From the NCBI GenBank assembly GCA_032622095.1, contig CP136066.1, positions 206,854,978-206,918,977 of the forward strand: 64,000 nt of DNA. Reading direction: 5' to 3'. Source of the DNA: Siphonodentalium dalli (Eukaryota; Mollusca; Scaphopoda; Gadilida; Siphonodentaliidae). Below the pieces are notes generated by a model. That model ran no database searches. It was not told the DNA's origin and worked only from the letters and a program-made list of their open reading frames with translations. A program made the translations under genes and the position numbers. Positions 10,829-61,031 of the stretch are shown piece after piece (position 1 is the stretch's first letter; every line of letters starts with the position of its first letter).

Positions 10829-11330
10829 TCTCATATAGATTTTGAAGACCTCTGTTTGTTTGTTTGTCTGTCTGTCTGTCATTTATACAAATCTACGATT
10901 CTCGACCGATCGGGACGAAACTTGGTACGTGTGAGTAGTTTTACCAGGCGGTGAACGTTGTCGTATTGGCGAGCCCGTGCGGCGCCCGCTTCGCGCATGC
11001 GCAGACGAGATCTCGGAAACGGGTAGAGCTATCGACTTGAAATTTGCTATGTGAATGTATCTTGCCCCGGATACGAATTTTAATCGGGTCGCCGAGCCCG
11101 TGCGGACGCCAGCTTCGCGCATGCGCAGACGAGATCTCGGAAACGGGTGGAGCTATCGACTTGAAATTTGGTATGTGAATGTATCTTGCCCCGGATACGA
11201 ATTTTATCGGGTCGCCGAGCCCATGCGACGCATGCTTCGCGCATCCGCAGACCAGATCTCTGAAACGGGTAGAGCTATCGACTTGAAATTTGGTTTTGAA
11301 TAGCCCGGACAACGTCGGCTCATCGGCTAG
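10829..11330 (+). mobile_element. Helitron-like element, type A (second of two in tandem)
   Basis: Follows the previous copy with no spacer (CTAG then TCTCATATAGATT) and ends at CATCGGCTAG before a host T. It has three core repeat units rather than two. The A before the first copy and the T after this one match the A/T insertion site of Helitrons. Confidence 0.75.
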
Positions 11331-26008: not shown

Positions 26009-28615
26009 ATTATACTTCCATGTTTTAACATGGAAGTATATTGTAATTCTTCTGGCTTTTATTATTATTTTTTTTCTTCTTATTATTCCAATAACACCCT
26101 TATATCTCGGGAACGGCTGAACCGATTCACCTGCGGTTTTTTTCTTCAGTATAAAACCTTGGAAGATCTCGGTAAATAGCCTATTGAGAATTTCGTACGA
26201 CCTTGACCTTCGGAGTTATCGCCATTTTGTTGATATTTGGGGGTTTTTCGCGACACAAAAGTAACTTGCAAAATCGATGTTTGAATTCTTATATCGTCAA
26301 AATGGCTAGGCCTATTGATTTGAAGTTTGGTGCATGCATAGCCATTGAGTATACGAAGTCGATGTACAAATAGGGAATTTCGTCTGACCTTGACCTTTGG
26401 AAACAACGCTCTTTATCGGTTTTAGTGTTGTTATCGTATCTCCTCATAAACGGCTTGAGATATCGAGTTCGGACTTTTTTCATTATTTTCGCATGTATGT
26501 GTGTTATGAACCGCCGAAATATGATAGGGTTTACACTTCCGGTTTAAAAGTTCGCTACTGGTCGAAGGATAAAACAACGCTCTTTATAGGAAATCCAGAA
26601 CGGCTCGAGATATTGAGTTGGGACTTTTTGCATGATGTGCAGCAAACTCTGTGCTCTCGAACGATATATATAGTTAACAGATTTCACTTCCGGTTCGGGA
26701 GAACGGGCGTGTGGGTATGTATCTCAAAACTATTTTGGCGCAGATTTTGATGAAATTTATTGGACATAATCTTTAGTTGTCGATTACCACTATTCCGCTC
26801 AGATTTTTAAAATCGGACCTAAACTTCTCGAGTTATGGCTGCTTAAAAACCTAATTTTTATGGGGTTTTCGGACCCCAATAATGACTTGTAAAATTGCAA
26901 AATCGATATTTGATTTCTTATACCGCCGAAACGGCCTGGCCAATTGATTTGAAATTTTGTATCTGCATAGCCGGTGGGCATTTGTTGTCGATGCATAAAT
27001 AAGGAATTTCGTCTGACCTTGACCTTTGGAAACAACGCTCTTTATCGGTTTTATTGTTGTGAAGAGATCTCCTCCTAAATGGCTTGAGATATCGGGTTCG
27101 GACTTTTTTCATTATTTTCGCATGTATGTGTGTTATGAACCACCGAAAAATTATAGGGTTTGCAATTCCGGTTTAAAAGTTGACCCTGGGTCGAATAATA
27201 AAAGAACGCTCTTTATTGGAAATCTAGAACGGCTTGAGATATTGAGTTGGGACTTTTTGCGTTATGTTCATCCAACTGTGCGATGTATAAAGATATATAT
27301 AGTTAACGGATTTCACTTCCGGTTCGGGAGAACGGGCGTGTGGGTATGTATCTCAAAACTATTTTGGCGCAGATTTTGATGAAATTTAGTAGACATGATC
27401 TTTAGCTCTCGCTGACCACTATTCCGTTTATATTTTTAAAATCGGACTTAAACTTCTCGAGCTATGGCTGCTTAAAAACCTGATTTTTATGGGTTTTCGG
27501 ACCCCTAGAATGACTTGCAAAACTTCAAAATCGATGTTTGATTTCTTATATCGTTGAAACGGCGTGGCCAATTGATTTTAAATTTTGTACCTGCATAGCC
27601 ATTGAGCATTCGCGGTCGATGCATAAATAAGTAATTTCGTCTGACCTTGACCTTTGGAAACAACGCTCTTTATCTGTTTTATTGTTGTTAACGTATCTCC
27701 TCCTAAACGGCTTGATATATCTGGTTCGGACTTTTTCATTATTTGCGCATGCACATGTGTTACAAACCATCGAACAATAATAGGGGTCGCCCACCCCCGG
27801 TTTAAAAGTTGACCCTGGGTCGAATTATAAAAGAACGCTCTTTATACGAAATCCAGAACGGCTTGAGATATTGAGTTGGGACTTTTTGCGTTATGTTCAT
27901 CCAACTGTGCGATGTATAAAGATATATATAGTTAACGGATTTCACTTCCGTTTATGGAGAATGGGCGTGTGGGTATGTACCTCAAAACTGTTCTGGCGCA
28001 TATTATGATGAAATTTGGAGGATATAATCTCTAGTTGCCGCTGATCACTATCCCACTCGAAGTTTTTAAATCGGGCTAAAACTTCTGGAGTTATTGCTGC
28101 TTAAATACCTGATTTTCTGGGAGGTTTCGTGCCACCATAATGACTTGCAAAACGTGTTTTGATTTCTTATATCGTCAAAACGGCTCAGCCAATTGATTTG
28201 AAGTTTTGTACCTGCATAGCTATTGAGCATACGCAGTCGACAGACTAATAGAGAATTTCGTCTGACATTCTTCTTTGGGAACAACGCCCTTTATCTTTGT
28301 TATTATTTTTAAGGTATCTCCCCCAAAACGGCTGGAGATATCAGGTTCGGACTTTTTGAATTGTTTGCATCAGATTCTGCGCTGCATAATGATGTATATA
28401 TGTTACGGTTTTTACTTCCTATTTGGGAGAAATGGCGTGTTGGTAAGTGTTTCAAATTGTTTTTGGTGCATATTTTGATGGAATATGGTGGATAGAACCT
28501 GTGGTGGTCGAGTATTACTATGAGCTATAGTATCACCATACTGATATGTGTCTCCCGACACTGACACTTTATCGGGTGGCACAATTTCCGTCATTGGTGG
28601 ACATGGAAGTATCGA
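26009..28615. repeat. ~628-bp tandem array, 3-4 units
   Basis: TTCGTCTGACCTTGACCTTT recurs at about 26380, 27009 and 27637, with a diverged copy near 28259, spacing 629, 628 and 622. Each unit also carries CGGCTTGAGATAT twice and AACGCTCTTTAT twice, 171-172 bp apart. The block opens with a palindrome (ATACTTCCATG, short loop, CATGGAAGTAT) at 26009-26039 and closes near an inverted CATGGAAGTAT at 28603, so it may be an element with short terminal repeats. Matching ORFs at 26397-26750 and 27026-27379 are repeat shadows. Confidence 0.8.
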
Positions 28616-31074: not shown

Positions 31075-32370
31075 TTAATGTCTCAAATGAAAGTGTCAAT
31101 GACACTGTAGCTCAACTTTGAGAAGAAGTTAAATTTGTGTGATGAGCAATGAATGGAAAGATTTAGAATTGAATTTGGAAATCCAAGATGGCCACTGGCA
31201 GCCATGTTTTTTTGTCGGAATGTCCCCAAAATGACTCATTCTCATCTACATTCCAATTTCAACAGCCATGAAAAATTTCATGATGATCAGACTAAAGGTA
31301 CGACCTGTAGCCCGTGCTAAAGGATTTAGTCATACAAAGAGTAAAATCCAAGATGGCTGCTGGCAGCCATGTTTTTGGGTCAAATGATCCCAAAATGACT
31401 CGTTCCCATCTACATGTCATTATTAACATTCTTGACAAATTTTATGATGATCAGACTGAAAGTACGACCTGTAGCCCGTGCTAAAGAATTTAGTCATACA
31501 AAGAGTAAAATCCAAGATGGCTGCTGGCGGCCATGTTTTTGGGTCAAATGGTCCCAAAATGACTCGTTCCCATCTACATGTCATTATTAACATTCTTGAC
31601 AAATTTTATGATGATCAGACTGAAAGTACGACCTGTAGCCCGTGCTAAAGAATTTAGTCATACAAAGAGTAAAATCCAAGATGGCTGCTGGCGGCCATGT
31701 TTTTTGGCCGAATAACCCCAAAATTACTCGTTCCCATCTACATGTCAATATTATCATCCATGACAAATTTCATGATGATCAGACAAACAGTACGACCTGT
31801 GGCCCGTGCTAATGGATTAAATTTTGAAATCCAAGATGGCCACTGGCGGCCATTTTTTTTGTCCGAATGACCCCAAAATGACTCGTTCCCATCTACATTC
31901 CAATTTCAACAGCCATGACAAATTTTATGATGATCAGACTAAAGTTAAGACCTGTAGCCCGTGTTAAGATTTAGTCATATAAAGACTAAAATCCAAAATG
32001 GCTGCTGCGGCCATGTTTTTTGGCCGAATGACCCCAAAAGGACTCGTTCCCATCTACATGTCATTATTAACATTCTTGACAAATTTCATGATGATCAGAC
32101 AAACATTACGAACTGTAGCCCGTGCTAATGGATTGAATTTTGAAATCCAAGATGGCCACTGGCGGCCATGTTTTTTTTCTCCGAATGATCCCAAAATTAA
32201 TAATCTGGTCTAAATGTTGATGTCAACAGCTATGACAAATTTCATAATGATCCGACCAAAGGTACGACCTGTAGCCTGCATTGTTGACGCCTTACGTACA
32301 CACATACACACGGACGACAAAGCCATGGCAATAGCTCAAACTTTACAATTTAACGACATTTTCGGTCTTT
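31075..32370. repeat. ~160-bp tandem repeat family
   Basis: About seven units of AAATCCAAGATGGCTGCTGG, then CGGCCATGTTTTTTGG, a CCCCAAAATGACTCGTTCCC-like phrase, ATGATGATCAGAC and GTACGACCTGTAGCCCGTGC. It opens with GTGTCAATGACACTGTAGCTCAAC and ends with GGACGACAAAGCCATGGCAA, then TAGCTCAAACTT. The same family lies inverted at 57971-59858. The ORF at 31998-32213 is a repeat shadow. Confidence 0.85.
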
Positions 32371-38907: not shown

Positions 38908-39582
38908 TCTCATATATATTTTGAAGACCTCTGTATGTCTGTCTGTCTGTCTGTCTGACTGTCTGTTTGTTTGCCTGTCATTAATACAAATCTACGATTC
39001 TCGACCGATCGGGACGAAACTTGGTACGTGTGTGTAGTTTGACCAGGCGGTCGTCGTTGTCGTATTGGCGAGCCCGTGCGGCACCCGCTTCGCGCATGCG
39101 CAGACGAGATCTCGGAAACGGGTGGAGCTATCGACTTGAAATTTGGTATGTGAATGTATCTTGCCCCGGATACGAATTTTATCGGGTCGTCGAGCCCGTG
39201 CGACGCCAGCTTCGCGCATACGCAGACGAGATCTCGGAAACGGGTGGAGCTATCGACTTGAAATTTGGTATGTGAATGTATCTTGCCCCGGATACGAATT
39301 TTATCGGGTCGCCGAGCCCGTGCGACGCCAGCTTCGCGCATACGCAGACGAGATCTCGGAAACGGGTGGAGCTATCGACTTGAAATTTGGTATGTGAATG
39401 TATCTTGCCCCGGATACGAATTTTATCGGGTCGCCGAGATCGTGCGACGCCAGCTTCGCGCATGCGCAGACCAGATCTAGGAAACGGGTAGAGCTATCGA
39501 CTTGAAATTTCGGGTTGGGTAGAGCTATCGACTTGAAATTTGGTTTTTGAATTGCCCGAACAACGTCGGGCTCATCGGCTAG
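38908..39582 (+). mobile_element. Helitron-like element A1
   Basis: Starts TCTCATATATATTTTGAAGA after an A. It contains (TCTG)n and four ~122-bp core repeats (GATCTCGGAAACGGGTGGAG, ATCTTGCCCCGGATACGAAT) and ends with hairpin GCCCG...CGGGC and CATCGGCTAG. The first member of a six-element head-to-tail array. Confidence 0.8.
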
Positions 39583-40257: not shown

Positions 40258-40732
40258 ATTAATACAAATCTACGATTCTCGACCGATCGGGACGAAACTT
40301 GGTACGTGTGTGTAGTTTGACCAGGCGGTCGTCGTTGTCGTATTGGCGAGCCCGTGCGACGCCCGTGCGGCGCATGCGCAGACGAGATCTCGGAAACGGG
40401 TGGAGCTATCGACTTGAAATTTGCTATGGGAATGTATCTTGCCCCGGATACGAATTTTATCGGGTCGCCGAGCCCGTGCGACGCCAGCTTCGCGCAGACC
40501 AGATCTCGGAAACGGGTGGAGCTATCGACTTGAAATTTGGTATGTGAATGTATCTTGCCCCGGATACGAATTTTATCGGGTCGCCGAGATCGTGCGACGC
40601 CAGCTTCGCGCATGCGCAGACCAGATCTAGGAAACGGGTAGAGCTATCGACTTGAAATTTCGGGTTGGGTAGAGCTATCGACTTGAAATTTGGTTTTTGA
40701 ATAGCCCGGACAACGTCGGGCTCATCGGCTAG
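40198..40732 (+). mobile_element. Helitron-like element A2
   Basis: Type A, fewer core repeats than A1, ends CATCGGCTAG and abuts B2. It contains the same odd repeated phrase as A1 (GGGTTGGGTAGAGCTATCG). Confidence 0.8.
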
Positions 40733-41406: not shown

Positions 41407-41877
41407 ATTAATACAAATCTACGATTCTCGACCGATCGGGACGAAACTTGGTACGTGTGTGTAGTTTGACCAGGCGGTCGTCGTTGTCGTATTGGTGAGC
41501 CCGTGCGGCGCATGCGCAGACGAGATCTCGGAAACGGGTGGAGCTATCGACTTGAAATTTGCTATGGGAATGTATCTTGCCCCGGATACGAATTTTATCG
41601 GGTCGCCGAGCCCGTGCGACGCCAGCTTCGCGCAGACCAGATCTCGGAAACGGGTGGAGCTATCGACTTGAAATTTGGTATGTGAATGTATCTTGCCCCG
41701 GATACGAATTTTATCGGGTCGCCGAGCCCGTGCGACGCCAGCTTCGCGCATGCGCAGACCAGATCTCGGAAACGGTAGAGCTATCGACTTGAAATTTGGT
41801 TTTTGAATAGCCCGGACTTGAAATTTGAGTTTTGAATAGCCCGGACAACGTCGGGCTCATCGGCTAGTCTATTATAT
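41347..41877 (+). mobile_element. Helitron-like element A3
   Basis: Type A, close to A2 but with small differences in the core repeats, ends CATCGGCTAG. Abuts B3. Confidence 0.8.
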
Positions 41878-44598: not shown

Positions 44599-44720
44599 AA
44601 CTTTACATTCGTCATCAATGATTACAGAATAAATGCCGATCATATTTAACTAAAAATGGGACTTCTTACTATACTTAAAAAGATGAAACAGAAAGAGAAG
44701 GAAGTCAGACTCTTGATGCT
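44599..44720 (+). CDS. ARL2: ARL2 exon 1 (coding from 44656) with possible 5'UTR acceptor
   Basis: The ATG at 44656 (TAAAAATGG context) starts 65 coding bases, ending ...LLML plus two bases. Upstream, CATTTTTTTTCAG ends at 44598 and looks like a true acceptor, so the 5' leader may continue from an upstream noncoding exon. No TATA box is seen between 44330 and 44590. The donor GTATCTTTTA is U12-like. Confidence 0.85.
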
Positions 44721-47700
44721 GTATCTTTTAATTTTTATCGATTCAATATTAATAATAAAAATTAATATTAACAATAACATTAACCACAGTCCCTAGGAAT
44801 CACTGTTAGTTGAATAAAATATTATTTAATAATATTAACGAAGTGGCTAAAGAGCGGTATACCGCTCTTTAGCACTGAGGGCTAAAGAACGGTATACCGC
44901 TCTTTAACGATGAGGGCTAAATAGCGGTATACCGCTCTTTATAGCCGGACACTAACGACCAAGCAGTACGGATGATAATGTAAGACCGTTCGTTATCGCG
45001 CCAGGACCATGTAGGGCCTATAGCTAAATATCGGTATATACCGGTGTACACCACTCTTTAGTATATGACAGGTACACCGTTCTTTGGCGTTTGTCACGTG
45101 CATAGCAGGGGTCGGGGTCGATTCGGTCCAGGGCTGTTTCGGCTGGGCTTGTTCGGCCGGGCTTGTTCAGCCCATGGTTTGGGCCGAACAGTCTCACCTA
45201 AAAATGTTTTTATCAGTAGGATATTTGGATGTTTATATATATTTTTCTTTTGTATGTTATTTTATTATTATAATAAAGCGTTTAATATTTTGATTAAAGT
45301 GTATAAAAGGGTAGCATTGCTCTAGTTTATATTATATATATTGATCTTATGATTTGATTTAATATTCTTACCTGTGATTTGTCTGTGAGAAAGATGATAA
45401 TAAAGTTGTAGATATATGTTACTATATAGATTGTATCTACCTTTTTACACTCAGAACGGCTTCTGGCATGTTTGTTTGGACAAGATAAAACGGTGATTGA
45501 TCTGAGTTGAGAATCACTCAGTTGGTGAGTTGAGACTTGTTCATGCAATCACAACAAGAGTATTATTATCACATTATATAAACCAAAAATTTCTTCTTCT
45601 TCACCATATTTTTATTGAACTACAAAAGTACAAACAAATTTAATGAAATTTCGTCTTCTTCACCATATTTTTATTGAACTACAAAAGTACAAACAAATTT
45701 AATGAAATTTCGTCTTCTTCACAGCTTGGCACAGGCGGCTTAACATGAAGGGGAGCAGATTGTCTTTCTACCCGCTGATCCAAGTGCTCCAAAAAGAAGC
45801 TGCACATATCGAGGTAGCTGTAGCAGCGAGGGACCTCGAAACCGACATAAAGCAGAAGTACACGAAGATTGACAGAGACCTTGTGGCGATAATGGGTATC
45901 ATACAAAGACGGCACCATCAAGACAACCGAATTCCTGAAGGATGTGAACGCGATCTACAAGAATGGCCAATCCAAGAAATAAAGAAGAAGAATAAAGAAG
46001 AAGACCTACGCAAAGAAGAAGAAGAAAGAAGAAGACCTACGCAATGTTTTAATATTTATAAATAAATAATGTATTGACTGATTTTTCCATGTGTTATCTT
46101 GTTTTTAATCATTAAATAACCAGATGTTTTATCATGTAAACTGTATATATTTACTGTTTTAACTTGTTTTTAATCAATAAATGTTCATATCTTTCATCAT
46201 ATATTCACGTTATTGTTCGAATTTGTTGCAGTGTTAATTACTATGTGTGTATACCCATTACTATTGTTGCGAATAAAACGTTAATTGCAAACATAAATCT
46301 CCATTGTCATCAAAAGACCGGTCCCAAATCAAAGGCAATTAACATGCCGTCCAATTAACACCCACACTACCTAATTACCCGATTTGAATACGGGCCGAAC
46401 AAGCCCGGCCGAAAGAGCCCTGGACCGAAAAGTCGAAGACCGAAAGAGCCCTGGACCGAATCGACCCGCTCCCCATAGCAGTATACCGTTCTTCAGCGCC
46501 AACGCTGAAGAGCGGTATACCGTTCTTTAGTACCAACCGCTAAAGAGCGGTATACCGTTCTTTATCGTATCAGGGCCATATAGCTAAAGAGTGGTATACC
46601 ACTCTTTAGCGTTCGGTACTAAAGAGCGGTATACCGCTCTTTAGCACCAAACGCTAAAGAGCGGGATACCGTTCTTTAGCGTGTCAGGCCCATATAGCTA
46701 AAGAACGGTATACCGCTCTTTAGCGTTTGATACTAAAGAACGGTATACCGCTCTGTAGCCACGGCCTAATATTAAATCAATATATTATAGTTAGTTATTA
46801 TATTAATATATATATAGCTTATATCTGTATAGAAGAGGTAATGTATCTAGATCTATTTGTTATATTTTAATCAAATTTAATATTATATGGACAGTGATTC
46901 CTAGGACTGTGCATTAACAATCATTTCAATGTCAACAGCTTGAACAGGTCTGGCAAATGTGAGAATAGAGCTACAAAGTTTTATTATCTAACCTAACTGA
47001 ATTCAGCTATATATTCTACTCTCAAACTGGCTGTTTATCGATAATTAACTAGAAATGCTAATTTGCGCATCTAAACTAGGTTTAGTCCGTAAACCTGACT
47101 TACATCTACACTACAGTACAGCACAGAAGTTGGAATCACTGACTTTTATGCCATTTTTTTAGATTTTTTTTGAGTTTTAACAAATGCATAAATCTCAGGG
47201 TTTTCGGCATATTTAGTTAGAAAAATCATTGATCTACAATCTTACCGCGAGCATAGCATCTATTCGTTGATTTATTCCAGGTTTTATCGCACGTTAAAAT
47301 TTTTTTTTCACCTGTTAGCTTGGTGGTACCGCCGAAGTTTGCCGGACCTCCTCGTGTGTCTTCGGCAAATCGGGTAGTACGAAAACTGGTATTCGGAGCC
47401 AGAACATTGTTATCGGTCAAAACAATCAGCCCATGGCAAAGGTCTATTAAAAGTATCAGGTTCTGCCTTCCCAGCTGGTCCATTAAGCGTTGTTTCATTG
47501 TGTAATATGGTCATTTGAGTGTTAAACAGAATAAAATGTCAAGAAAGGGATTTTGGTGTCATTAGACGCAGAATAACACATCCAAACTATCCAGAAATTC
47601 AAGTTGGCGTTCAACATAGCCACCGAAACTAATAAATAGCTAGGGCAAATTACTCACAAAGTCAAATTGACCAAACACGAATACAGTCTCGATATGGACA

Positions 47701-50700: not shown

Positions 50701-53700
50701 AGGTCCATTCTATGTGTTTAATATTATATTTGAACACCAACCTACTAAACAACGAACACAAACAAACATAAGATTGGCTGTAGTCCAAAGCCTCTCTTTG
50801 TTACTTACACATCATTGAGTAGTTTTTATTGTAAGGTAATTGTCATTCACAGATGAAATGGTCACTTTCACCCCATTTCGTTCAGTTGGGTATCCAGCTT
50901 TTTAAAATTTTCAGTTGGGTACCCAGCTTTTTATAAAATTTACCTTTGGGTACCCAGCTTTACGAAATCTCAGAACATGATTTAATTACTGATTTCTGTC
51001 AGTTGTTTTCGATGTGAATCTGTTAAATTTGTTAGCACTTGTTTATATGACATATATTCGGTCACGATAGCAGAGAAGAATTGTAGGCATAGGACATGTG
51101 TCCTCCTGTTCTGTATCCTCAAAACAGAATCAAGGCCGACATGCTCTAAACTTGAATGTATAACGATAAGAACAAAACGAATGTCCTTGAATTAGCCGTA
51201 ATGCCATCAAAATCTGCCCGCAAAATTCCACTCATAATTAATTCGCAATTTGAATGCCTCTAAGTATTTCATAAAGATGGGTAACCAAATGTAAATTTTA
51301 TGAAAGCTGGGTAGCCAACTAAAAATTAAAAAGAGCTGTGTACCAACTGAACGAAAGGGGATGACAGTGACCATTTCAGTATCAGCCTGGAGAGTAACAA
51401 CATGGGAAACAACAAAACCACCATTAAATAATATGCACAAATATCTCTACTTAAATCATCTATTCTTAATTGCTCCATTTCAATTTAGGAGCCTGCATTC
51501 TTACTACAATTTGCTTCAAAATCTAAATATTTTAAGAAAGTGTAAATCAAATGAAGTGGCTATTCTGATTGGACCTCTTTACCTGCACTCGGAAGGTACA
51601 TTCCAAATGGCAATTGTACATGTACCACTGATTTTTTCCCTATCTAAATAGCAAGCTGGTAGTGTTATCAAAATAACTTAGTCTTTGGCATAGAACAAGC
51701 CTTCTCAGTCCACAACAGCTTGGGATATCGGTTGGGTTGATGCCATCAAGACAACAAGGGGAGATTTAAATAAAGAAGTTTAATTTTCATCGGAAACTCC
51801 AAACGAACCTGCTGTAGAGCGAATTCATTATTGATGGATATGGTTTCCTGAGGATTAATTATTCCAAACATATACACCAATATTGTTTAGATATTCTGAT
51901 AGGGCTATGTTAACCCTCTAGTCTCTGCAAATTTGACTCAACAATTTCCAATAGAACTATATTTATTTGGCTTTATCTGACACCACACAAATTTGGGAGT
52001 TCCCAAAGTTTTCTGAATATTTTTACTACTAATATCAAAAATGAAAGTTCCTTAACAATTGTATGCAGGGGACTTGACAATGCTGGAAAAACAACAATAC
52101 TTAAGAAATTCAATGGAGAAGATATTGACACAATCTCACCTACCTTGGGATTCAATATCAAAACATTGGAACATAGAGGGTAAGTGTATAACATCATTAA
52201 TCATTTCAGCTACTTTATTATTCGTAAGTACTGGCACTCGACGGTACCCAAATAAACTTCATAATAATCAAACAGATGTATAAAATTTTAAACAACAAAA
52301 AGTTTGAAGCCTGAAATTATTTCTTATATATGTGAGGCTCCCTATGGGAGATATTTTTTCATCTTTATAAGGTTCCTTGTCAAAACTTCAAAAAGTTCCC
52401 AGGTTTTGTACTGGTGGAATATGATCTCTACGGGCATTAGCCAGAGTAGAGATTCATGACATGATCTAGTATACATGTATTCTATCTATTAAATGACCAA
52501 TTTGTTCAATTAAAGATGTATCTCACTATCTCTTCCCTGAACTTTCTGTATAGATTTTGGGGGGGGGGGGGGGTGGGTATACAATAATCATTTTGCGTCA
52601 GATATAACAGACAACAGGAGCTTCTGTTGTTAGGAAATCATGTTTTTCTCAAATTATTTTCTACAATCACATCACATCACATCAAACTCGTGCAATAACA
52701 TTAAACAGTTTCCAGACTTATGTTAATCTATCTGTATATAAACGGTGCAAACATGGCAAGCTTCCTATGTAGTATGTATATTACTTTTATTTCCAGATTC
52801 AAATTAAATGTGTGGGATGTTGGTGGACAGAAATCACTGCGATCATATTGGAGGAACTACTTTGAGAGTACAGATGGTTTAATATGGGTTGTTGATAGCG
52901 CAGATCGAATGAGACTTAATGACTGTAAGCAGGAACTCAAAGCTCTCCTAGTAGAAGAGGTAAATAGCATCTGCTAACGAGTGTGTTGTCTCTCTGTTTT
53001 GGTACTGTGATTCGTATTGTACTGCCCACTATAAAGTATGCTGGAGTCACTCTTGTGGATATGATTTTGTCTGGTCTTTATCTAGTTATTTAAAGGTACC
53101 ACATCTCCAAAAATTAACAGACTTCAAAAATCGATATCTGATCACTCTGAGCTTTGATAGGTGGGTTCCTCGACTCGAATCAAATATTTTTTACCCCCGA
53201 AGCCAAAGAAATGGTAATTATGGGGTGCTTAATCGGATTGAGTACCTTTAAGAGGACTAAACCAATTTTTTTACCTACATTGATTCATGCAGAATGATTC
53301 ATATTCATTGGTGGGAAAAGTTCAGATAATAAGTTCAACAAACGACCTATGGTTGTTTTGTTGAATTTTTTATCTGAAAATTTCTAAAGGGAACTACTTG
53401 TCAATGAGTACTTAGTATAGAAAGGGTTTACCCTTTACCCAACAGAACGGCCCTGTGCCAATGCAGGTCGCCTCGCATATATAAGAGAATGCATTGGCTT
53501 AACACATTAAAAATTATAAAATTGTTAAAGAATGTAAGAAAAAATGGTAAAAAGTGTTAAAAAAAGATTTTTTTTAGGCCAATGCATTCTCTTATATATG
53601 CGAGGCGACCTATGGTCGACTCGCATATATAAGAGAATGCATTGGCACAGGGCATAACTGTAATTATCACAATGTGGTCAAGGAGCCGGTTCCAATGATA

Positions 53701-56700
53701 TCCATATTTGTATGGTTCTATTGAGACAGTCCGAAGATATTTTAGGCTGTTGAAGCTTTATTTGGCCGGTTTGTTGGGTATTATATAAAAGGGTTAAAGG
53801 GGCCTGAGGCACTCGCATTCGGTAAATGTGCAAAAAATATATAAATCTGTAAAATCATCACCACCAAGAAGAACATGGAGAAATAGATAAAGTTTATTCT
53901 TATTATTCATTATTGATAGTTCTACAATAACAACATTTCACGTGTGGAAACCATTGTTATGTAGACAAAACTATGACAGTGATGTGTCAACAAACATCGC
54001 TAATAATGTAGTTAACCCTTTACCCAACAAACCAGCCAAAACCGGCCAAATAAAGCTTCAACAGCCTAAAATATCTTTGGTCTGTCTCAATAGAACCATA
54101 CAAATATGGATATCAATGGAACCGGCTCCTTGACCACATTGTGATAGTTACAGTTATGCCCTGTGCCAATGCATTCTCTTATATATGCGAGTCGACCATA
54201 GGTCGCCTCGCATATATAAGAGAATGCATTGGCCTAAAACACTTTTTACCATTTTTTCTTACATTCTTTAACAATTTTATAATTTTTAATGTGTTAAGCC
54301 AATGCATTCTCTTATATATGCGAGGCGACCTATGGTCGACACGCATATATAATAGAATGCATTGGCACAGGGCCCTTCTGTTGGGTAAAGGGTTAAGTTG
54401 AAATATTTTAGTCTAAATATGATTTTCAGAATATTTTTCAATGCTTTGACCGTTTTCAATGTTTACTGTCAAGCTTTGATTAACTTTGGTATACTAATGG
54501 ACTAATTGGACTTTTATCGGTAATCCCACTGTAACAATGGTTCTGACATGGGAATCTAATTATAATTAGTGGAGAGTTAATATCAATAATGAAAATAAGA
54601 ACAATGTCAACCTAGTTTTTCATGATAGTTGTATTTAATACAGAATTTTATGTTAATTCGCATGAATCCAATTTGAAGCCTTGAATCCCTTTAGAGTTAC
54701 ACAAACTGTTCAACCTTCTTATCATATTAACTATATTCTATATACCATTGGAAAGAGAAGCTCTAGAATATTGATATATGAATGTTATTTGGTTCTCATA
54801 TGGTGTGGATATTCAATCATGACTACTTGTAATTCCAGAGACTGGCAGGTGCAACGTTACTGGTGTTTAATCATGACTACTTGTAATTCTAGAGACTGGC
54901 AGGTGCAAAGTCACTGGTGTTTAATCATGACTACTTGTAATTCCAGAGACTGACAGGTGCAACATTACTGGTGTTTAATCATGACTACTTGTAATTCCAG
55001 AGACTGGCAGGTGCAACATTACTGGTGTTTAATCACGACTACTTGTAATTCCAGAGACTGGCAGGTGCAACACTACTGGTGTTTAATCACGACTACTTGT
55101 AATTACAGAGACTGGCAGGTGCAACATTACGGGTGTTTAATCATGACTACTTGTAATTCCAGAGACTGGCAGGTGCAACGTTACTGGTGTTTAATATGAC
55201 TACTTGTAATTCCAGAGACTGGCAGGTGCAACATTACTGGTGTTTAATCATGACTACTTGTAATTCCAGAGTCTGGCAGGTGCAACATTACTGGTGTTAA
55301 AATCATGTCTACTTGTAAATCCAGAGACTGGAAGGTGCAACATTACTGGTGTTTAATCATGACTACTTGTAATTCCAGAGACTGGCAGGTGCAACATTAC
55401 TGGTGTTTAATCATGACTACTTGTAATTCCAGAGACTGGCAGGTGCAACATTACTGGTGTTTAATCATGACTACTTGTAATTCCAGAGACTGGCAGGTGC
55501 AACATTACTGGTGTTTAATCATGACTACTTGTAATTCCAGAGTCTGGCAGGTGCAACATTACTGGTGTTTAATCATGTCTACTTGTAAATCCAGAGACTG
55601 GAAGGTGCAACATTACTGGTGTTTAATCATGACTACTTGTAATTCCAGAGACTGGCAGGTGCAACATTACTGGTGTTTAATCATGACTACTTGTAATTAC
55701 AGAGACTGGCAGGTGCAACATTACTGGTGTTTAATCATGACTACTTGTAATTCCAGAGACTGACAGGTGCAACATTACTGGTGTTTAATCGTGACTACTT
55801 GTAATTCCAGAGACTGGCAGGTGCAACATTACTGGTGTTTAATCATGACTACTTGTAATTCCAGAGACTGACAGGTGCAACATTACTGGTGTTTAATCAT
55901 GACTACTTGTAATTCCAGAGACTGACAGGTGCAACATTACTGGTGTTTAATCATGACTACTTGTAATTCCAGAGACTGGCAGGTGCAACATTACTGGTGT
56001 TTAATCATGACTACTTGTAATTCCAGAGACTGACAGGTGCAACATTACTGGTGTTTAATCATGACTACTTGTAATTCCAGAGACTGACAGGTGCAACATT
56101 ACTGGTGTTTAATCATGACTACTTGTAATTCCAGAGACTGGAAGGTGCAACATTACTGGTGTTTAATCATGTCTACTCGTAAATCCAGAGACTGGCAGGT
56201 GCAACATTACTGGTGTTTAATCATGACTACTTGTAATTCCAGAAACTGGCAGGTGCAACATTACTGGTGTTTAATCATGACTACTTGTAATTCCAGAGAC
56301 TGACAGGTGCAACATTACTGGTGTTTAATCATGACTACTTGTAATTCCAGAGACTGGCAGGTGCAACATTACTGGTGTTTAATCATGACTACTTGTAATT
56401 CCAGAGACTGACAGGTGCAACATTACTGGTGTTTAATCATGACTACTTGTAATTCCAGAGACTGGCAGGTGCAACATTACTGGTGTTTAATCATGACTAC
56501 TTGTAATTCCAGAGTCTGGCAGGTGCAACATTACTGGTGTTTAATCATGACTACTTGTAATTCCAGAGACTGACAGGTGCAACATTACTGGTGTTTAATC
56601 ATGACTACTTGTAATTCCAGAGACTGGCAGGTGCAACATTACTGGTGTTTAATCATGTCTACTTGTAATTCCAGAGACTGTCAGGTGCAACATTACTGGT

Positions 56701-59700
56701 GTTTAATCATGACTACTTGTAATTCCAGAGACTGACAGGTGCAACATTACTGGTGTTTAATCATGACTACTTGTAATTCCAGAGACTGGCAGGTGCAACA
56801 TTACTGGTGTTTAATCATGACTACTTGTAATTCCAGAGTCTGGCAGGTGCAACATTACTGGTGTTTAATCATGTCTACTTGTAATTCCAGAGACTGTCAG
56901 GTGCAACATTACTGGTGTTTAATCATGACTACTTGTAATTCCAGAGACTGGCAGGTGCAACATTACTGGTGTTTAATCATGACTACTTGTAATTCCAGAG
57001 ACTGGCAGGTGCAACATTACTGGTGTTTGCTAACAAACAAGATCTCAACGGAGCTTTAGCCGTCCAAGAAATAAAAGATGTAAGTGTGAATCATGCTAAA
57101 TTATTGTAGTCAAACCAGCAAGTGAAATCAGTTAGGACAATGCTGGTTTTATGTCGAAATCCATTGTATATACAGTTTTATAACAGACTTTACACCCAGA
57201 CCCAGTGGCAGTATTTTTCTTCTGTTTTAATTGAGTTTATCCGAAATATCTTACTAACCTAAAAATCAATACATGATGCTACATATTTAGGAAAGAATGA
57301 CATATTACGGTCATAATGATGTATTATAACATTATTAAACATTTATTATTAAACATTTATGTTAAATTACGCACGGAATCCGCCGTGTAATTTACTTTTA
57401 GAGAAAACGTAATTTATTCCAAAGTAAAATCTGGCAATGTTCGGCTTATATACCGACAATTGACTACACCCATAAACAACACATTTGAGACCATGTGCGC
57501 TGTTATTTTAATCCAACATCCCATCACTGTTATGATTATAATTTAATTGTAAGTAACTGGTCCTATATTATTAGTTAACATTTCTTAACCTGGAAGTCTC
57601 GTGATGTATATGTAATTTCCAATTTTTAAATTACCAGATATACATGAAACAATTGATTCAATCGACAATCACGTGGTCGTGTTTACATTTACCACACGGC
57701 TGTCAATTCGCGAAGTCGTGTGACAAAATGCTGTTATATAAAACGTCTTGGAAAATTTTACACTAGAGTTGACTGTGGTTAGCATTATTTTTTGGTAATT
57801 AATTGATTCTGATAACAAAAGTGTTCTTTGAATAAATGTTTAATGTCATTGTTGTTGTTATTGGAATCTGATGATATGGGGACCAACGAATCGGACTGTG
57901 CATTATGTTCAACCAAGTAGCAGAGCGATGAAGTTCTGTTCAACCTCGTCACTCCTTGTCATCCTTTTTTAGCTCAACTGGATGAAGTCAAGCTTGAGCT
58001 ATTGCCATGGGTTGGCATCCGTCTGTCAACAATTTCCTTAGGCTCACCCTACAGGCCACATCCCTCATCTGATCATCGCCAAACATCAATTGGATCTTCA
58101 GGGTGACCTCTAGATGGGAGCCATTGATTTTTTCCCAAATTCGTTAAAAAACATGGCGACCAGCAGTAGTGCTGGGCGGTATTTCGGTATACCGATTATA
58201 TAATCGGTAATATTTTCAATACCATAATTTTTGTCCATAATCGGTAAACCTTGATGACGGTATTATCGTGGTTACAGGTAATACCGGCCCATTACTGGGT
58301 ACATTGTGGTTTACCTTTATCGGAATACAAAGAAACTACTTGGGTTCTCTTCACCATAGTTATCTTTCAGTTGAAAGATACTGTTCATTCTTCACTTATG
58401 TCACTTCTTTCTTGATGACATTTGCCAAAAAGTGCATTCCTTTGCTATCAAATATTATATTGCAAGTTATGATTGCATCATTCTGAGCTATTTTTAAACC
58501 ACTGAATTATTTCCCGCGGTGTTTTCGAGTGGGAATTATTGATCACGTTCATAAACGTGGATTTATATGTATCATTTATAATAATTCAACCGGGAAGTGA
58601 ATAACAGTCTACAAGTTAAGTACCTTGAAAGTAATACACATTATTTCTCGGCATTTAATAAAAACATTATACATATTCACACCCGGCGGAACATTCCAAT
58701 ATCAACTTAACAGCACATGCTCTGGGCGACTCAGTCAGGGTTATTTCAAAGCTCTTGGATGTATCCGCTGAATGATGCTTCCATAACTCACAATTATTAC
58801 CTGTATTTGAGATCAGCACACCTTGCCATGAATCCATGCATGCAAACAAATGATACATTGCCACTGTTTGTTAATCCATAATTTTTAAAACGGAGATTTG
58901 GATGTGTGTGTTTCATCATTTATTGTAAGCTATTCGATTTCCTCCAAAAAACAGTTGACTTGTGTACCAAACGATCACTACTCAGCAGGGGTTTTAAGTG
59001 ATTAGTTGAAATAATCGGTAATACCGTATACCGCGGAATGGTTTTAAGATTACCGCAGTATTTTTATGCTTAAAAACCGCCCAGCAGCTATTTTGGATTT
59101 CAAATTTGAATCCATTTATTGGAGAAATGTTTTGAAAATGTACAGGCATGTTTAGGATCACCTCTAGATGGGAGCTATCAGTTTTAGCGATTTTCGATGA
59201 AAAACATGGCCACTGGCAGCCATCTTGAATTTTACTCTTTGCAGATCACATCCATCATCTGATCGCCACAAAACTTCATATGGATCTTCGGGGTGACCTC
59301 TAGATGGGAACCATCGTTTATTTCCGAAATCGTTAGAAACATGGCCGCCAGCATCCATCTTGGATTTTACTCTTTTCTAAATCCTTCAGCACAACCTACA
59401 GGCCACATCCCTAATCTGATTGTCATCAAACCTCTAGATGGGAGCCAATGATGTTTTCTGAAATTCATTAATAAACATGGCTGCCAGCAGCCATCTTGGA
59501 TTTTACTCTTTGCATCACTAAATCCTTTGGCACACCCTACATTCTACATCCCTCATCCAAACTTCATATGGTTCTTTGGGGTGACTTCCAGATGGGAGCT
59601 GTCCAATTTTTCAGAAATTTGTTTACAAAAACATGGCTGCCTGCAGCCATCTTGGATTTTACATATGAATCCATCGGCACACCCTGCAGCCCATATTTAT

Positions 59701-61031
59701 TGGAGAAATGTTTGAAATAAAATTAATTTCATTTACACAATACAATCCATTTACTGAAACTTTTTGACTTTCCTTCTTTACCATTCTATTAACTGCTCAG
59801 CATAAGATTATTAATACCTCCCCAAGTTGAGCTACAGTGTCATTGACACTTTCATTCAAATTATGTAAACATTGTGATCAAATATATTTTCCACATTAAA
59901 TTACCTCTTTCAATGGCAACTTGTTTGTTTGTCGTTCAGAACAAATATCATGTCTTCTGTGCAATATATCACTTTACTGTCATAATTGTGATAGCTTATT
60001 ACAGTAATTTGGGATTTTAGATGAATGGGTCAACAAAGCTTTCACTCTGATATATAACTGTATATACACAGGACTTCGGCGTAAAACCAGCATTGTCCCA
60101 ACTATCAGGGATGTTTAGCAAATGGATAATTCTGTTTTGGACAGCTGATTGACTTTTTCCATCCATATGTCAAGGCATATATCTCAGCCTCAGATCTGAA
60201 TGAAATTTGGTACGGAGTTTCACCATCGAGAGAGGTTTCAAAAGATTGCCCATGAACGATGAATGTTCACATTTTCAGTTCTAGCGTTATCCCTCTTCTT
60301 TGTCTGTAATTAATGGGTTTTTCTGTCCATCCACCTGAGTATATCTCAGCCATTGGATTAAAGGATTCTAATATAATTTGATAGGATGTTCACTATCACA
60401 AGGGCTATCAATGAAGTCAAGTCTGAGTTTATTGTGCCTGTCTTTTGCAGAATGAGGTCCCCAGAGGGTGAAATTAGTGACGCTATCCCGCATAGCAGGC
60501 TAGCATCACTAAATTCACCCTCTGGGGACCTCATTCTGCTTAGGCCTCATCTTCTCTGGAAAGTTACTATATTATCAAATATCTATAGAAACTTCTTCAC
60601 ATAGATTCTATTTATTTTTAGTTTCGTTTTTCTATATCCCCAAATGGCATAATCGAGGTTCCCAATGTGTGTACATCGCAATATTCACCATTTGGGAACA
60701 AGTTTCAATCCGAGTATGTCTCCGATAGCAGATGAGGGATAGCGTCACTAAATTCACTCTCTGGGGACCTCATTCTGCAAATGACAGGCACACTAAACTC
60801 ACGCTATCAATGAAGTGTTATTGATGTTTGCATTTTACCTTTTAGATTTATTCTCTATTGTTTATTTTTACAGTTAATCCCATTTTTTATTTTCAGGCTA
60901 TGGAGCTCAATGAAATAAAATCTCACCACTGGCTCATTCAGGGATGTAGTGCCGTCACTGGTGAAAATCTTCTTGAAGGAATCGATTGGCTTATAGACGA
61001 TATAAGTTCCAGGATATTTACATTGGACTAA
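44656..61031 (+). CDS. ARL2: ADP-ribosylation factor-like protein 2 (ARL2), five exons, 184 aa
   Basis: ARL2 is a small GTPase. In animals it acts with tubulin cofactor D in making tubulin dimers, binds BART/ARL2BP and releases lipidated cargo from PDE6D. Coding exons: 44656-44720, 52069-52179, 52797-52959, 56999-57079, 60897-61031. All junctions are GT-AG and phases match (2, 2, 0, 0), giving 184 codons, the same length as vertebrate ARL2. Motifs: N-terminal [17 protein letters not shown]-loop GLDNAGKTT (residues 23-31); switch I T47; WDVGGQ with Gln70; NKQD (125-128); CSA (157-159); C-terminus [10 protein letters not shown]. Gly2 is present, although ARL2 is not usually myristoylated. Introns are loaded with repeats, including a 41-copy minisatellite that overlaps exon 4. 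Identity is secure. Confidence 0.97.
44785..46911. mobile_element. Foldback DNA transposon with palindrome arrays at both ends
   Basis: Flanked by the 7-bp direct repeat CATTAAC (44778-44784, 46912-46918). Terminal inverted repeats begin CACAGTCCCTAGGAATCACT. Inside each end is an array of ~28-bp palindromes (GCTAAAGAGCGGTA followed by its complement): three or more at 44850-44945 and about eight at 46480-46760. A second inverted pair follows (GATTCGGTCCAGGGC near 45120 against GCCCTGGACCGAATC near 46450). The centre has a ~65-bp direct duplication (about 45600-45720) and a coding-like piece (45745-46065) with no recognised domain. Inserted 64 bp after ARL2 exon 1. Superfamily unknown. Confidence 0.8.
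46919..48833. other. ARL2 intron 1 sequence; one candidate antisense exon
   Basis: Mostly AT-rich with no repeat family recognised. See the separate entry at 47312-47498. Confidence 0.35.
47312..47498 (-). CDS. Candidate unrecognised exon, antisense in ARL2 intron 1
   Basis: ATG at 47498 on the minus strand opens [12 protein letters not shown], then a hydrophobic stretch ([15 protein letters not shown]) and [16 protein letters not shown], ending at a plausible donor (CTAACAG, then GTGAAA). GC content is higher than the surroundings. The frame stays open beyond the donor to 47226. I do not recognise the product. It could be the first exon of a nested gene or a captured fragment. Confidence 0.3.
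48834..49370 (+). mobile_element. hAT transposon remnant with BED zinc-finger piece
   Basis: TAGTGATGCTCCGATAATGA at 48834 and the CGATTTCCGAT repeats after it resemble a hAT terminus. About 440 bp on, one frame (about 49274-49370) reads [20 protein letters not shown], the start of a BED zinc finger (S-x-x-W-x-Y-F). The cysteine and histidine ligands are degraded and a stop follows. Only the left part of the element is present. Confidence 0.5.
49371..50853. other. ARL2 intron 1 sequence; no feature recognised
   Basis: AT-rich. GGTGGAATATATGGGTGGAA occurs as a short tandem near 50655-50680, and a phrase with ACTAAACAACAAACACAAAC is repeated near 50613 and 50745. No coding signal. Confidence 0.3.
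50854..51378. mobile_element. Foldback element in ARL2 intron 1
   Basis: Left end TGAAATGGTCACTTTCACCC and right end GGGGATGACAGTGACCATTT, then CA, are inverted. GTTGGGTACCCAGCTTT is tandemly repeated three times on the left (50887-50970) and its complement appears near 51295-51340. Confidence 0.7.
52069..52179 (+). CDS. ARL2: ARL2 exon 2
   Basis: 111 bp. Completes the leucine-glycine junction and encodes the P-loop ([14 protein letters not shown]) and switch I ([15 protein letters not shown]). Acceptor TATGCAG, donor GTAAGTG. The following intron (52180-52796) is an ordinary U2 type and includes a run of about 16 G near 52559. Confidence 0.97.
52797..52959 (+). CDS. ARL2: ARL2 exon 3
   Basis: 163 bp encoding [17 protein letters not shown] through ELKALLVEE, with the switch II glutamine (Q70). 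Acceptor TTATTTCCAG, donor GTAAAT, phase 0 at the end. Confidence 0.97.
53094..53247. mobile_element. TTAA-type MITE, family 2, internally deleted
   Basis: Starts AGGTACCACATC and ends TCGGATTGAGTACCT with TTAA on both sides. Only 154 bp, against 440-470 bp in the full copies. Lies in ARL2 intron 3. Confidence 0.75.
53429..54395. repeat. Nested ~970-bp palindrome in ARL2 intron 3
   Basis: Arms 53429-53810 and about 54015-54395 are inverted copies bounded by TACCCTTTACCCAACAG. Each arm contains its own pair of inverted CCAATGCATTCTCTTATATA units. 53579-53646 alone is a nearly perfect hairpin around GCGAGGCGACC. Flanking sequence at 53270-53430 also recurs inverted near 62030-62350. Confidence 0.85.
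54815..57028 (+). repeat. 41-copy 54-bp minisatellite built from the ARL2 intron 3/exon 4 junction
   Basis: 2214 bp = 41 x 54. Each unit is 24 nt of intron end (AATCATGACTACTTGTAATT, then CCAG) followed by 30 nt that are the first ten codons of ARL2 exon 4 (AGACTGGCAGGTGCAACATT, then ACTGGTGTTT). The last unit is the genuine acceptor and exon start, at 56999. One -1 and one +1 indel (near 55194 and 55290) cancel out. Units vary at a few positions (GGCAG, GACAG, GAAGG, GTCAG; TGACT or TGTCT), with signs of higher-order duplication. ORFs of up to 152 codons here are read-through in a non-ARL2 frame. Confidence 0.97.
56999..57079 (+). CDS. ARL2: ARL2 exon 4, head shared with the minisatellite
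   Basis: 81 bp, 27 codons: [20 protein letters not shown] and AVQEIKD, donor GTAAGTG, phase 0 at both ends. Supplies the NKQD guanine-specificity motif. The first 30 bases are the last unit of the 54-bp array. The remaining 51 bases are unique. This is the only acceptor in the array followed by a complete exon. Confidence 0.95.
57740..57905. mobile_element. Partial TTAA MITE, family 2
   Basis: Matches the right half of the 9.7- and 13.1-kb copies (GACTGTGGTTAGCATTATTT, then TTTGGTAATTAAT; GATGATATGGGGAC; CGAATCGGA), but the left end is absent. Lies in ARL2 intron 4. Confidence 0.6.
57971..59858 (-). repeat. ~160-bp tandem family, minus orientation, with nested insertion
   Basis: The minus-strand version of the array at 31.1-32.4 kb (CATCTTGGATTTTACTCTTT, ACATGGCTGCCAGCAGCCAT, and the ends AGCTATTGCCATGG and GAGCTACAGTGTCATTGACA). 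At least five units. It is split by the hAT-like element at 58167-59091. Confidence 0.8.
58167..59091. mobile_element. hAT-like non-autonomous element nested in the tandem family
   Basis: Ends TAGTGCTGGGCGGTATTTCG and the inverted ATTTTTATGCTTAAAAACCG, then CCCAGCAGCTA. TGCTGGGCGGTAT-type ends are typical of hAT relatives. The interior (CGGTAATACCG phrases, a palindromic TATAATCGG) encodes nothing. It clearly inserted after the tandem family formed. Confidence 0.65.
59859..60424. other. ARL2 intron 4 sequence with a short degenerate repeat
   Basis: ATATCTCAGCC with neighbouring GGAT..TTTGATA-like phrases occurs near 60180 and 60345, like the degenerate tandem repeats elsewhere. No coding signal. 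Confidence 0.35.
60425..60800. mobile_element. Inverted-repeat element, copy 1 (ARL2 intron 4)
   Basis: Ends GAGTTTATTGTGCCTGTC and the inverted GACAGGCACACTAAACTC. Just inside the left end is a perfect-stem hairpin at 60447-60539 (GCAGAATGAGGTCCCCAGAG and complement). A single arm of the same sequence lies inside the right end. The same element lies 257 bp further on, at 61057-61451. Confidence 0.75.
60897..61031 (+). CDS. ARL2: ARL2 exon 5 and stop
   Basis: 135 bp: [43 protein letters not shown] and TAA at 61029-61031. Contains the CSA (G5) motif. Acceptor TTATTTTCAG. The first possible AATAAA downstream is near 61787; another is near 62222. Copies of one MITE lie on both sides of the exon. 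Confidence 0.97.

Follow-up and report, generated by a model that had tools for sequence, protein, structure and literature searches.

A 41-copy minisatellite across the intron 3/exon 4 boundary of an ARL2 gene, probably a mirage

The 64,000-nucleotide stretch of contig CP136066.1 analysed here (hereafter the window) carries an ARL2 gene in which the boundary between intron 3 and exon 4 is repeated in tandem, so that the true splice acceptor is preceded by 40 near copies of itself. Arrays of this kind have been described in amphioxus genes as mirages, and the ARL2 array is probably another one: a minisatellite that straddles an acceptor, is neutral or nearly so, and does not prevent splicing from getting to the final copy.

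The array and its ARL2 gene

Tandem Repeats Finder (TRF) identified 41.0 copies of a 54-bp unit at 54815-57028, with 96% matches and a score of 4111, the highest in its table for the window. Each unit joined 24 nt of the end of ARL2 intron 3 to the first 30 nt of exon 4, in head-to-tail order. Segmentation of the array agreed with TRF on this unit and on the 41 copies, as the initial annotation had described them, and gave a length of 54 nt for 39/41 units, 53 nt for unit 8, and 55 nt for unit 10. The claim that the unit was repeated exactly 41 times held for the number but not for the exactness, since at least one change was present in 29/41 units. In total, 45 edits separated the 41 units from the consensus. 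Twelve of the 41 units were identical to it, units 40 and 41 included, and G7A was the sole change in another 10/41. When a 25-nt core across the acceptor was searched for in the window at up to 3 mismatches, there were 41 matches, every one inside the array and none in the window outside it; 100 shuffles gave 0 matches.

The five exons of the gene, when joined, yielded a 555-nt coding sequence (CDS) with a single terminal stop. The 184-amino-acid product aligned end to end and without gaps with ARL2 in PDB (E = 3.1e-106) and matched the Pfam family Arf (E = 3.6e-75). Such an intact ungapped CDS is obtained only if exon 3 is followed by AGACTGG...GCTAAC, exon 4 at 56999-57079. Thus, the last unit was confirmed as the true acceptor and exon start. 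Exon 4 begins AGACTGGCAGGTGCAACATTACTGGTGTTT, and the 10 residues encoded there aligned to the PDB ARL2 chain, which suggests that the exon is the ancestral part and that the boundary is what was multiplied.

The AG directly before the exonic part was kept in 41/41 units, as first annotated, and the acceptors of the decoys (the 40 units upstream of the true boundary) took the form CCAG, ACAG, or CTAG. Every unit (41/41) also contained AG|GT at exonic positions 9 to 12, as CAG|GT or AAG|GT, a donor-like site whose AGGT occurred nowhere else in the 555-nt CDS. A match to the branch-point consensus, TTAAT at -23, spanned the joint between units (exonic TTT plus intronic AAT). This motif, a consensus match only, preceded 39/41 acceptors and was absent before acceptor 1, while the real acceptor of exon 3 had no such match in the span scanned.

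Variation within the array was limited. Positions differing from the consensus amounted to 16/984 in the intronic part and 28/1230 in the exonic part, and they comprised 8 distinct intronic alleles (one of them a deletion) and 11 exonic ones; one inserted base came in addition. Only 18/54 columns were variable. Since 26/53 neighbouring column pairs were wholly invariant, the invariant AG is unremarkable, and selection to keep AG was rejected because the array alleles and column pairs gave no signal of it. Among the 11 distinct exonic alleles 2 were synonymous, against 28/90 of the possible changes, a test that is weak with so few alleles. The decoys therefore look neutral, with no detectable coding constraint. 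Variation rose towards the 5' end of the array (correlation -0.30, one-sided permutation P = 0.027), and of 10 private alleles, 7 were located in units 1 to 10 (P = 0.003 in a binomial test picked after the data had been inspected).

When the array was compared with itself at shifts of 54 to 1619 nt, the longest exact shared stretches measured 215 nt (7 units apart), 192 nt (6 units), and 188 nt (3 units). Such long matches between distant units suggest that blocks of more than one unit were duplicated. The flanks gave no sign of the array's origin: when the 60 nt on either side were compared with the unit, 309/500 and 464/500 shuffles scored as high. With flank similarity at chance level, TGGTGT near the left array edge was dropped as a candidate founder microhomology.

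In a frame other than that of ARL2, the unit was open at 55254-55763, where it encoded an 18-residue repeat of up to 169 residues from stop to stop. The common G7A variant closes this frame with TGA. The open frame is probably accidental.

Splice-site choice among the units

If the array is a mirage, the minisatellite would have been founded when the intron 3/exon 4 boundary was duplicated in tandem in a functioning ARL2 gene, and unequal exchange or slippage would have expanded it to 41 units. Splicing would then go mainly to the last acceptor, with the other 40 units carried as intron, because unit 41 alone runs on into the remainder of exon 4 with its donor GTAAGT, as exon definition would favour. 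Leakage to the decoys would be cleared by nonsense-mediated decay (NMD), and the array would have no selected function. The intact ARL2 CDS is consistent with the undisturbed mRNA splicing suggested for mirages. According to the relevant passages of PMC9225289, the splice sites closest to each other across an exon are favoured when the flanking introns are long; introns 3 and 4 of ARL2 measured 4039 and 3817 nt.

Decoys 12 and 13 limit what the choice can depend on. Both matched the true acceptor exactly over a span reaching -100/-101 on the intron side and +30 in the exon, so that nothing within these 130 nt (about 100 upstream and 30 in the exon) can discriminate between them, and the splice choice must use information outside. 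The true acceptor would have to be told apart by sequence beyond +30 or by being last. Possible discriminators are the 51 further nucleotides of exon 4 with the donor GAT|GTAAGT, more distant sequence, or the order in which the sites occur. The idea that acceptors are hidden in folded RNA was rejected as unsupported, since units 39 to 41 folded worse than their shuffles (z = +1.86; 197/200 shuffles were at least as stable).

Several points weigh against a mirage that is simply spliced past. The exon 4 acceptor is not a strong site: with 9/16 pyrimidines in -20 to -5, it had the fewest of the gene's four acceptors, the other three having 10, 12, and 13. It is the intact frame on which the presumed use of acceptor 41 is based. 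In addition, the genome may contain another intact ARL2 gene, and such a copy would make accurate splicing at this locus less necessary. Among competing 3' sites, the preference for the upstream one is described in the passages of PMC9225289 as reduced in exon-definition genes and is not stated there as reversed, so that substantial use of decoys would be possible. Finally, the unit's own CAG|GTGCAA could serve as a partner donor for the decoys. With donor strength taken as U1 pairing in a 9-nt duplex only, this site reached -6.8 kcal/mol in 38/41 units, and its AAG form -5.3 in the other 3. The real donors of exons 1 to 4 gave -1.3, -9.7, -6.9, and -5.1 kcal/mol, which places the unit's site near the exon 3 donor and above that of exon 4. 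Its first description as a weak donor was thus an underestimate in terms of pairing, although it does lack G at +5. As a separate observation, the exon 1 donor GCT|GTATCT at 44720 pairs very weakly with U1 (-1.3 kcal/mol), though the joined frame needs it.

Direct use of a decoy acceptor was predicted to give a 128-residue product for 38/40 decoys, in line with the length of about 128 first proposed; the exceptions were decoys 7 and 9, which gave 158 and 141 residues because of the 53- and 55-nt units. Transcripts with a stop well before the last exon junction are subject to NMD. In the decoy products, the stop lay 87 to 2193 nt ahead of that junction (15 decoys among the 16/41 acceptors listed), so NMD would be expected, and this part of the initial annotation stood.

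These products are the basis of the idea that copy number tunes ARL2 output, with the decoy acceptors competing and their products being lost to NMD. All 40 decoys have the AG, 11 are identical to unit 41, and direct use of any of them would truncate the protein to 128 to 158 residues. However, no constraint was detected in the decoys, as the count of synonymous alleles above indicates (2/11 against 28/90), and published mirages are reported or suggested to be harmless to splicing in the passages that treat them. We found no support for tuning as originally proposed and regard it as unlikely, with few chances in its favour.

It had also been argued that splicing must find the 41st acceptor or skip from unit to unit. 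In fact, the one-step search could be avoided. In a Rogers-type scheme, an early-transcribed decoy acceptor is used, its 10-nt piece AGACTGGCAG is joined by AG|GT to the AG|GT of unit 41, and the bulk of the array is removed as a second intron, so that the mRNA stays unchanged or is altered in one codon. Entry at the decoy's CCAG followed by AG|GT-to-AG|GT splicing into unit 41 was predicted to give 184 amino acids for all 41 units. The product was wild type for 21 of them (20 decoys, and unit 41, where this is trivial); for the remaining 20 decoys, one base differs in the 10-nt piece and a one-residue variant would result. For a G7A decoy, the expected junction is GAG|AGACTGACAG|GTGCAAC...GCTAAC. 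In skipping from unit to unit, each 10-nt piece that is kept would shift the frame whenever splicing next goes to CCAG. One retained piece was predicted to give a frameshift and 127 residues, whereas three would restore the frame with a 10-residue insert. A 24-nt piece ending CTG|GTGTTT (U1 pairing, -3.7 kcal/mol) would give an in-frame 8-residue insert and 192 amino acids.

The scheme draws on the AG|GT in 41/41 units, with AGGT nowhere else in the CDS; on the U1 pairing of CAG|GTGCAA; on the 184-residue predictions; and on the potato gene discussed below, in which a boundary-spanning duplication created an intron. Against it, unit 41 would have to be entered at the CAG|GT that lies 10 nt past CCAG, although splicing usually takes the first AG after a branch point. 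Moreover, microexons of 10 nt are smaller than the exons that are usually recognised by exon definition, and the donor lacks G at +5. We therefore consider that such splicing operates with low probability. It is equally doubtful that the locus is a natural 41-way competition of splice sites, tolerated because AG|GT-to-AG|GT splicing into the last unit would repair any decoy entry. Nor is it likely that some transcripts have an exon 4 made up of 10 nt from an upstream unit and the remainder of unit 41. Such mRNAs would be recognisable by their unit-specific variants, and they would mean that a minisatellite is giving rise to an intron.

An assembly artefact would mean that the array or its copy number is erroneous, and a related possibility is that this copy of the gene does not function. 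Short reads cannot establish the length of a 2.2-kb array with 54-bp units, exact repeats within it reach 215 nt, and one mirage is noted as apparently misassembled in a genome draft in the passages of PMC3087553. However, the 19 distinct alleles (one a deletion) and one inserted base stand in a non-uniform order, unlike a copying error, and the CDS is intact, so an artefact is improbable.

Other features of the window

The coordinates of the array, the gene, and a neighbouring element are given in Table 1. The element, which lies in intron 3 upstream of the array, consists of nearly 1 kb of nested inverted repeats, with outer arms of 39 nt (95% complementary) and inner arms of 201 nt (98%) and 94 nt (100%). 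As RNA it folded at -650 kcal/mol (z = -61 against 20 shuffles). It is probably a transposon resembling a miniature inverted-repeat transposable element (MITE), and no needed link between it and the array was seen.

Table 1. Features of the ARL2 locus (positions are those of the window)
Feature	Coordinates	Strand	Basis
ARL2 exon 1, coding part	44656..44720	+	ungapped ARL2 alignment
ARL2 exon 2	52069..52179	+	ungapped ARL2 alignment
ARL2 exon 3, donor GAG|GTAAAT	52797..52959	+	ungapped ARL2 alignment
ARL2 intron 3, 4039 nt, array share 2184 nt (54%)	52960..56998	+	
Fold-back (terminal inverted repeat) element, intron 3, upstream of array	53427..54396	+	
Decoys (units 1 to 40), each with the last 24 nt of intron 3 and the first 30 nt of exon 4	54815..56974	+	TRF, segmentation
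Unit 41, true intron 3/exon 4 boundary, equal to array consensus	56975..57028	+	segmentation, CDS joining
ARL2 exon 4, 81 nt; outside array only last 51 nt + donor GAT|GTAAGT	56999..57079	+	ARL2 alignment
ARL2 exon 5, coding part + stop	60897..61031	+	ARL2 alignment

Further repeats were found by TRF. Arrays of a 35-bp unit with the palindromic core AAAGAGCGGTATACCGCTCTTT lie in ARL2 intron 1, at 44845-44941 and 46477-46759. About seven copies of a 164-bp repeat with CCAAGATGGC...GGCCAT occupy 31168-32276, and text resembling this repeat was seen by eye, dispersed at about 58.0 to 59.7 kb. Related repeats of 116 to 124 bp (CGAGCCCGTGCGACGCCAGC...) form separate arrays at 10970-11301, 39069-39510, 40376-40660, and 41514-41808, with TCTG microsatellites nearby. 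The starts of two similar open frames of 118 amino acids, at 26394-26750 and 27023-27379, are separated by 629 bp, a spacing that suggests a direct repeat beyond the 500-bp period limit of TRF. In the window, Rfam gave 0 matches and ARAGORN 0 tRNAs, and Pfam had no match for six other long open reading frames (6 of the 21 of at least 110 amino acids). Three patterns, one taken from the unit and two from other repeats in the window, had 0 matches in viral_contigs, and one of the three had 0 in genome_contigs; as these collections comprise viral, bacterial, and archaeal contigs, the negatives are of little weight for the host. The repeats of the window have a molluscan look.

Comparison with known boundary repeats

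The ARL2 array presents, in nature and in extreme form, the competition among duplicated splice acceptors that is a classic test; Reed and Maniatis reportedly carried out such experiments in the 1980s. The unit variants label part of the copies, and RNA reads could thereby show which acceptors serve.

The initial annotation knew of no described case, but there are published ones. Amphioxus minisatellites of intron/exon boundaries are reported in the Adh3, globin, troponin C (TnC), and PGBD5 genes in passages of PMC3087553 and PMC3902484. The former traces the name mirages to a report on Adh3, with units of 10 to 72 bp and somatic instability; there, the Adh3 data and the authors' own reverse transcription-PCR suggest that regular splicing is undisturbed, though many repeats hold AG/GT signals. 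The latter cites the troponin C mirage and adds PGBD5, for which the sole cDNA support covers the N-terminal 83 to 86 residues and an assembly error is weighed. In these passages, mirage units are described as partly homogenised, those at the cluster edges excepted.

The ARL2 array has structural features of a mirage. Its repeats run head-to-tail with a unit of minisatellite size (54 bp x 41.0), each unit crosses from intron into exon in a protein-coding gene (intron 3/exon 4 of ARL2), and the splice signals are kept throughout (AG in 41/41 units, AG|GT in 41/41). Mirages are further marked by lengths that are unstable from one haplotype to another or within an individual; the ARL2 array was analysed as a single sequence. 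The globin BflGb6 mirage has the same build, an intron 3' end plus the 5' part of the next exon, and those of globin BflGb9, troponin C, PGBD5, and Adh3 are likewise tandem repeats of exon-intron boundaries. The copy numbers differ: BflGb6 has 6 and 3 units of 150 to 160 bp in two haplotypes, and PGBD5 has a 60-bp unit in 2 or 7 copies and a 108-bp unit in 3 or 6, depending on the assembly, against 41 of 54 bp in ARL2. In the passages concerned, all mirages under that name have cephalochordate hosts, but the host was not treated as defining. If the host here is not a lancelet, the array would show that mirages are not peculiar to cephalochordates.

AGGT in the duplicated exonic segment, one criterion of the Rogers model, was present in 41/41 units; the other, a new intron spliced out between copies, is for ARL2 a prediction. 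In a potato RdRp gene, as described in PMC4974935, a two-copy tandem duplication across an intron-exon boundary made a new intron with RNA-seq support. Both there and in ARL2, an intron end and an exon start are duplicated, and in potato the new intron takes its donor from the exonic part of the upstream copy; the difference is between 2 copies with a supported intron and 41 copies known from genomic sequence.

Human internal tandem repeats at exon-intron boundaries are linked to new introns in PMC2812944. Like these, and like the intron variable-number tandem repeat of ABCA7 (PMC5954066), the ARL2 array is a minisatellite at or near a boundary, a class tied to splicing changes; in the passages of these two papers, however, no acceptor plus coding-exon start is repeated to 41 copies. 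The repeat of the morpheus genes reaches 39 copies but is not described in the relevant part of PMC2812944 as an acceptor repeat. The minisatellites near alternative splicing in Caenorhabditis elegans that PMC4039745 deals with are a matter of regulatory motifs, not boundary copies. The array thus has more copies than the boundary cases in the passages of PMC3087553, PMC3902484, PMC4974935, and PMC2812944, in which mirages reach at most 7. A boundary-spanning minisatellite as such is already in these published passages, and it is the copy number, together with the host if that is not a lancelet, that sets the ARL2 array apart.

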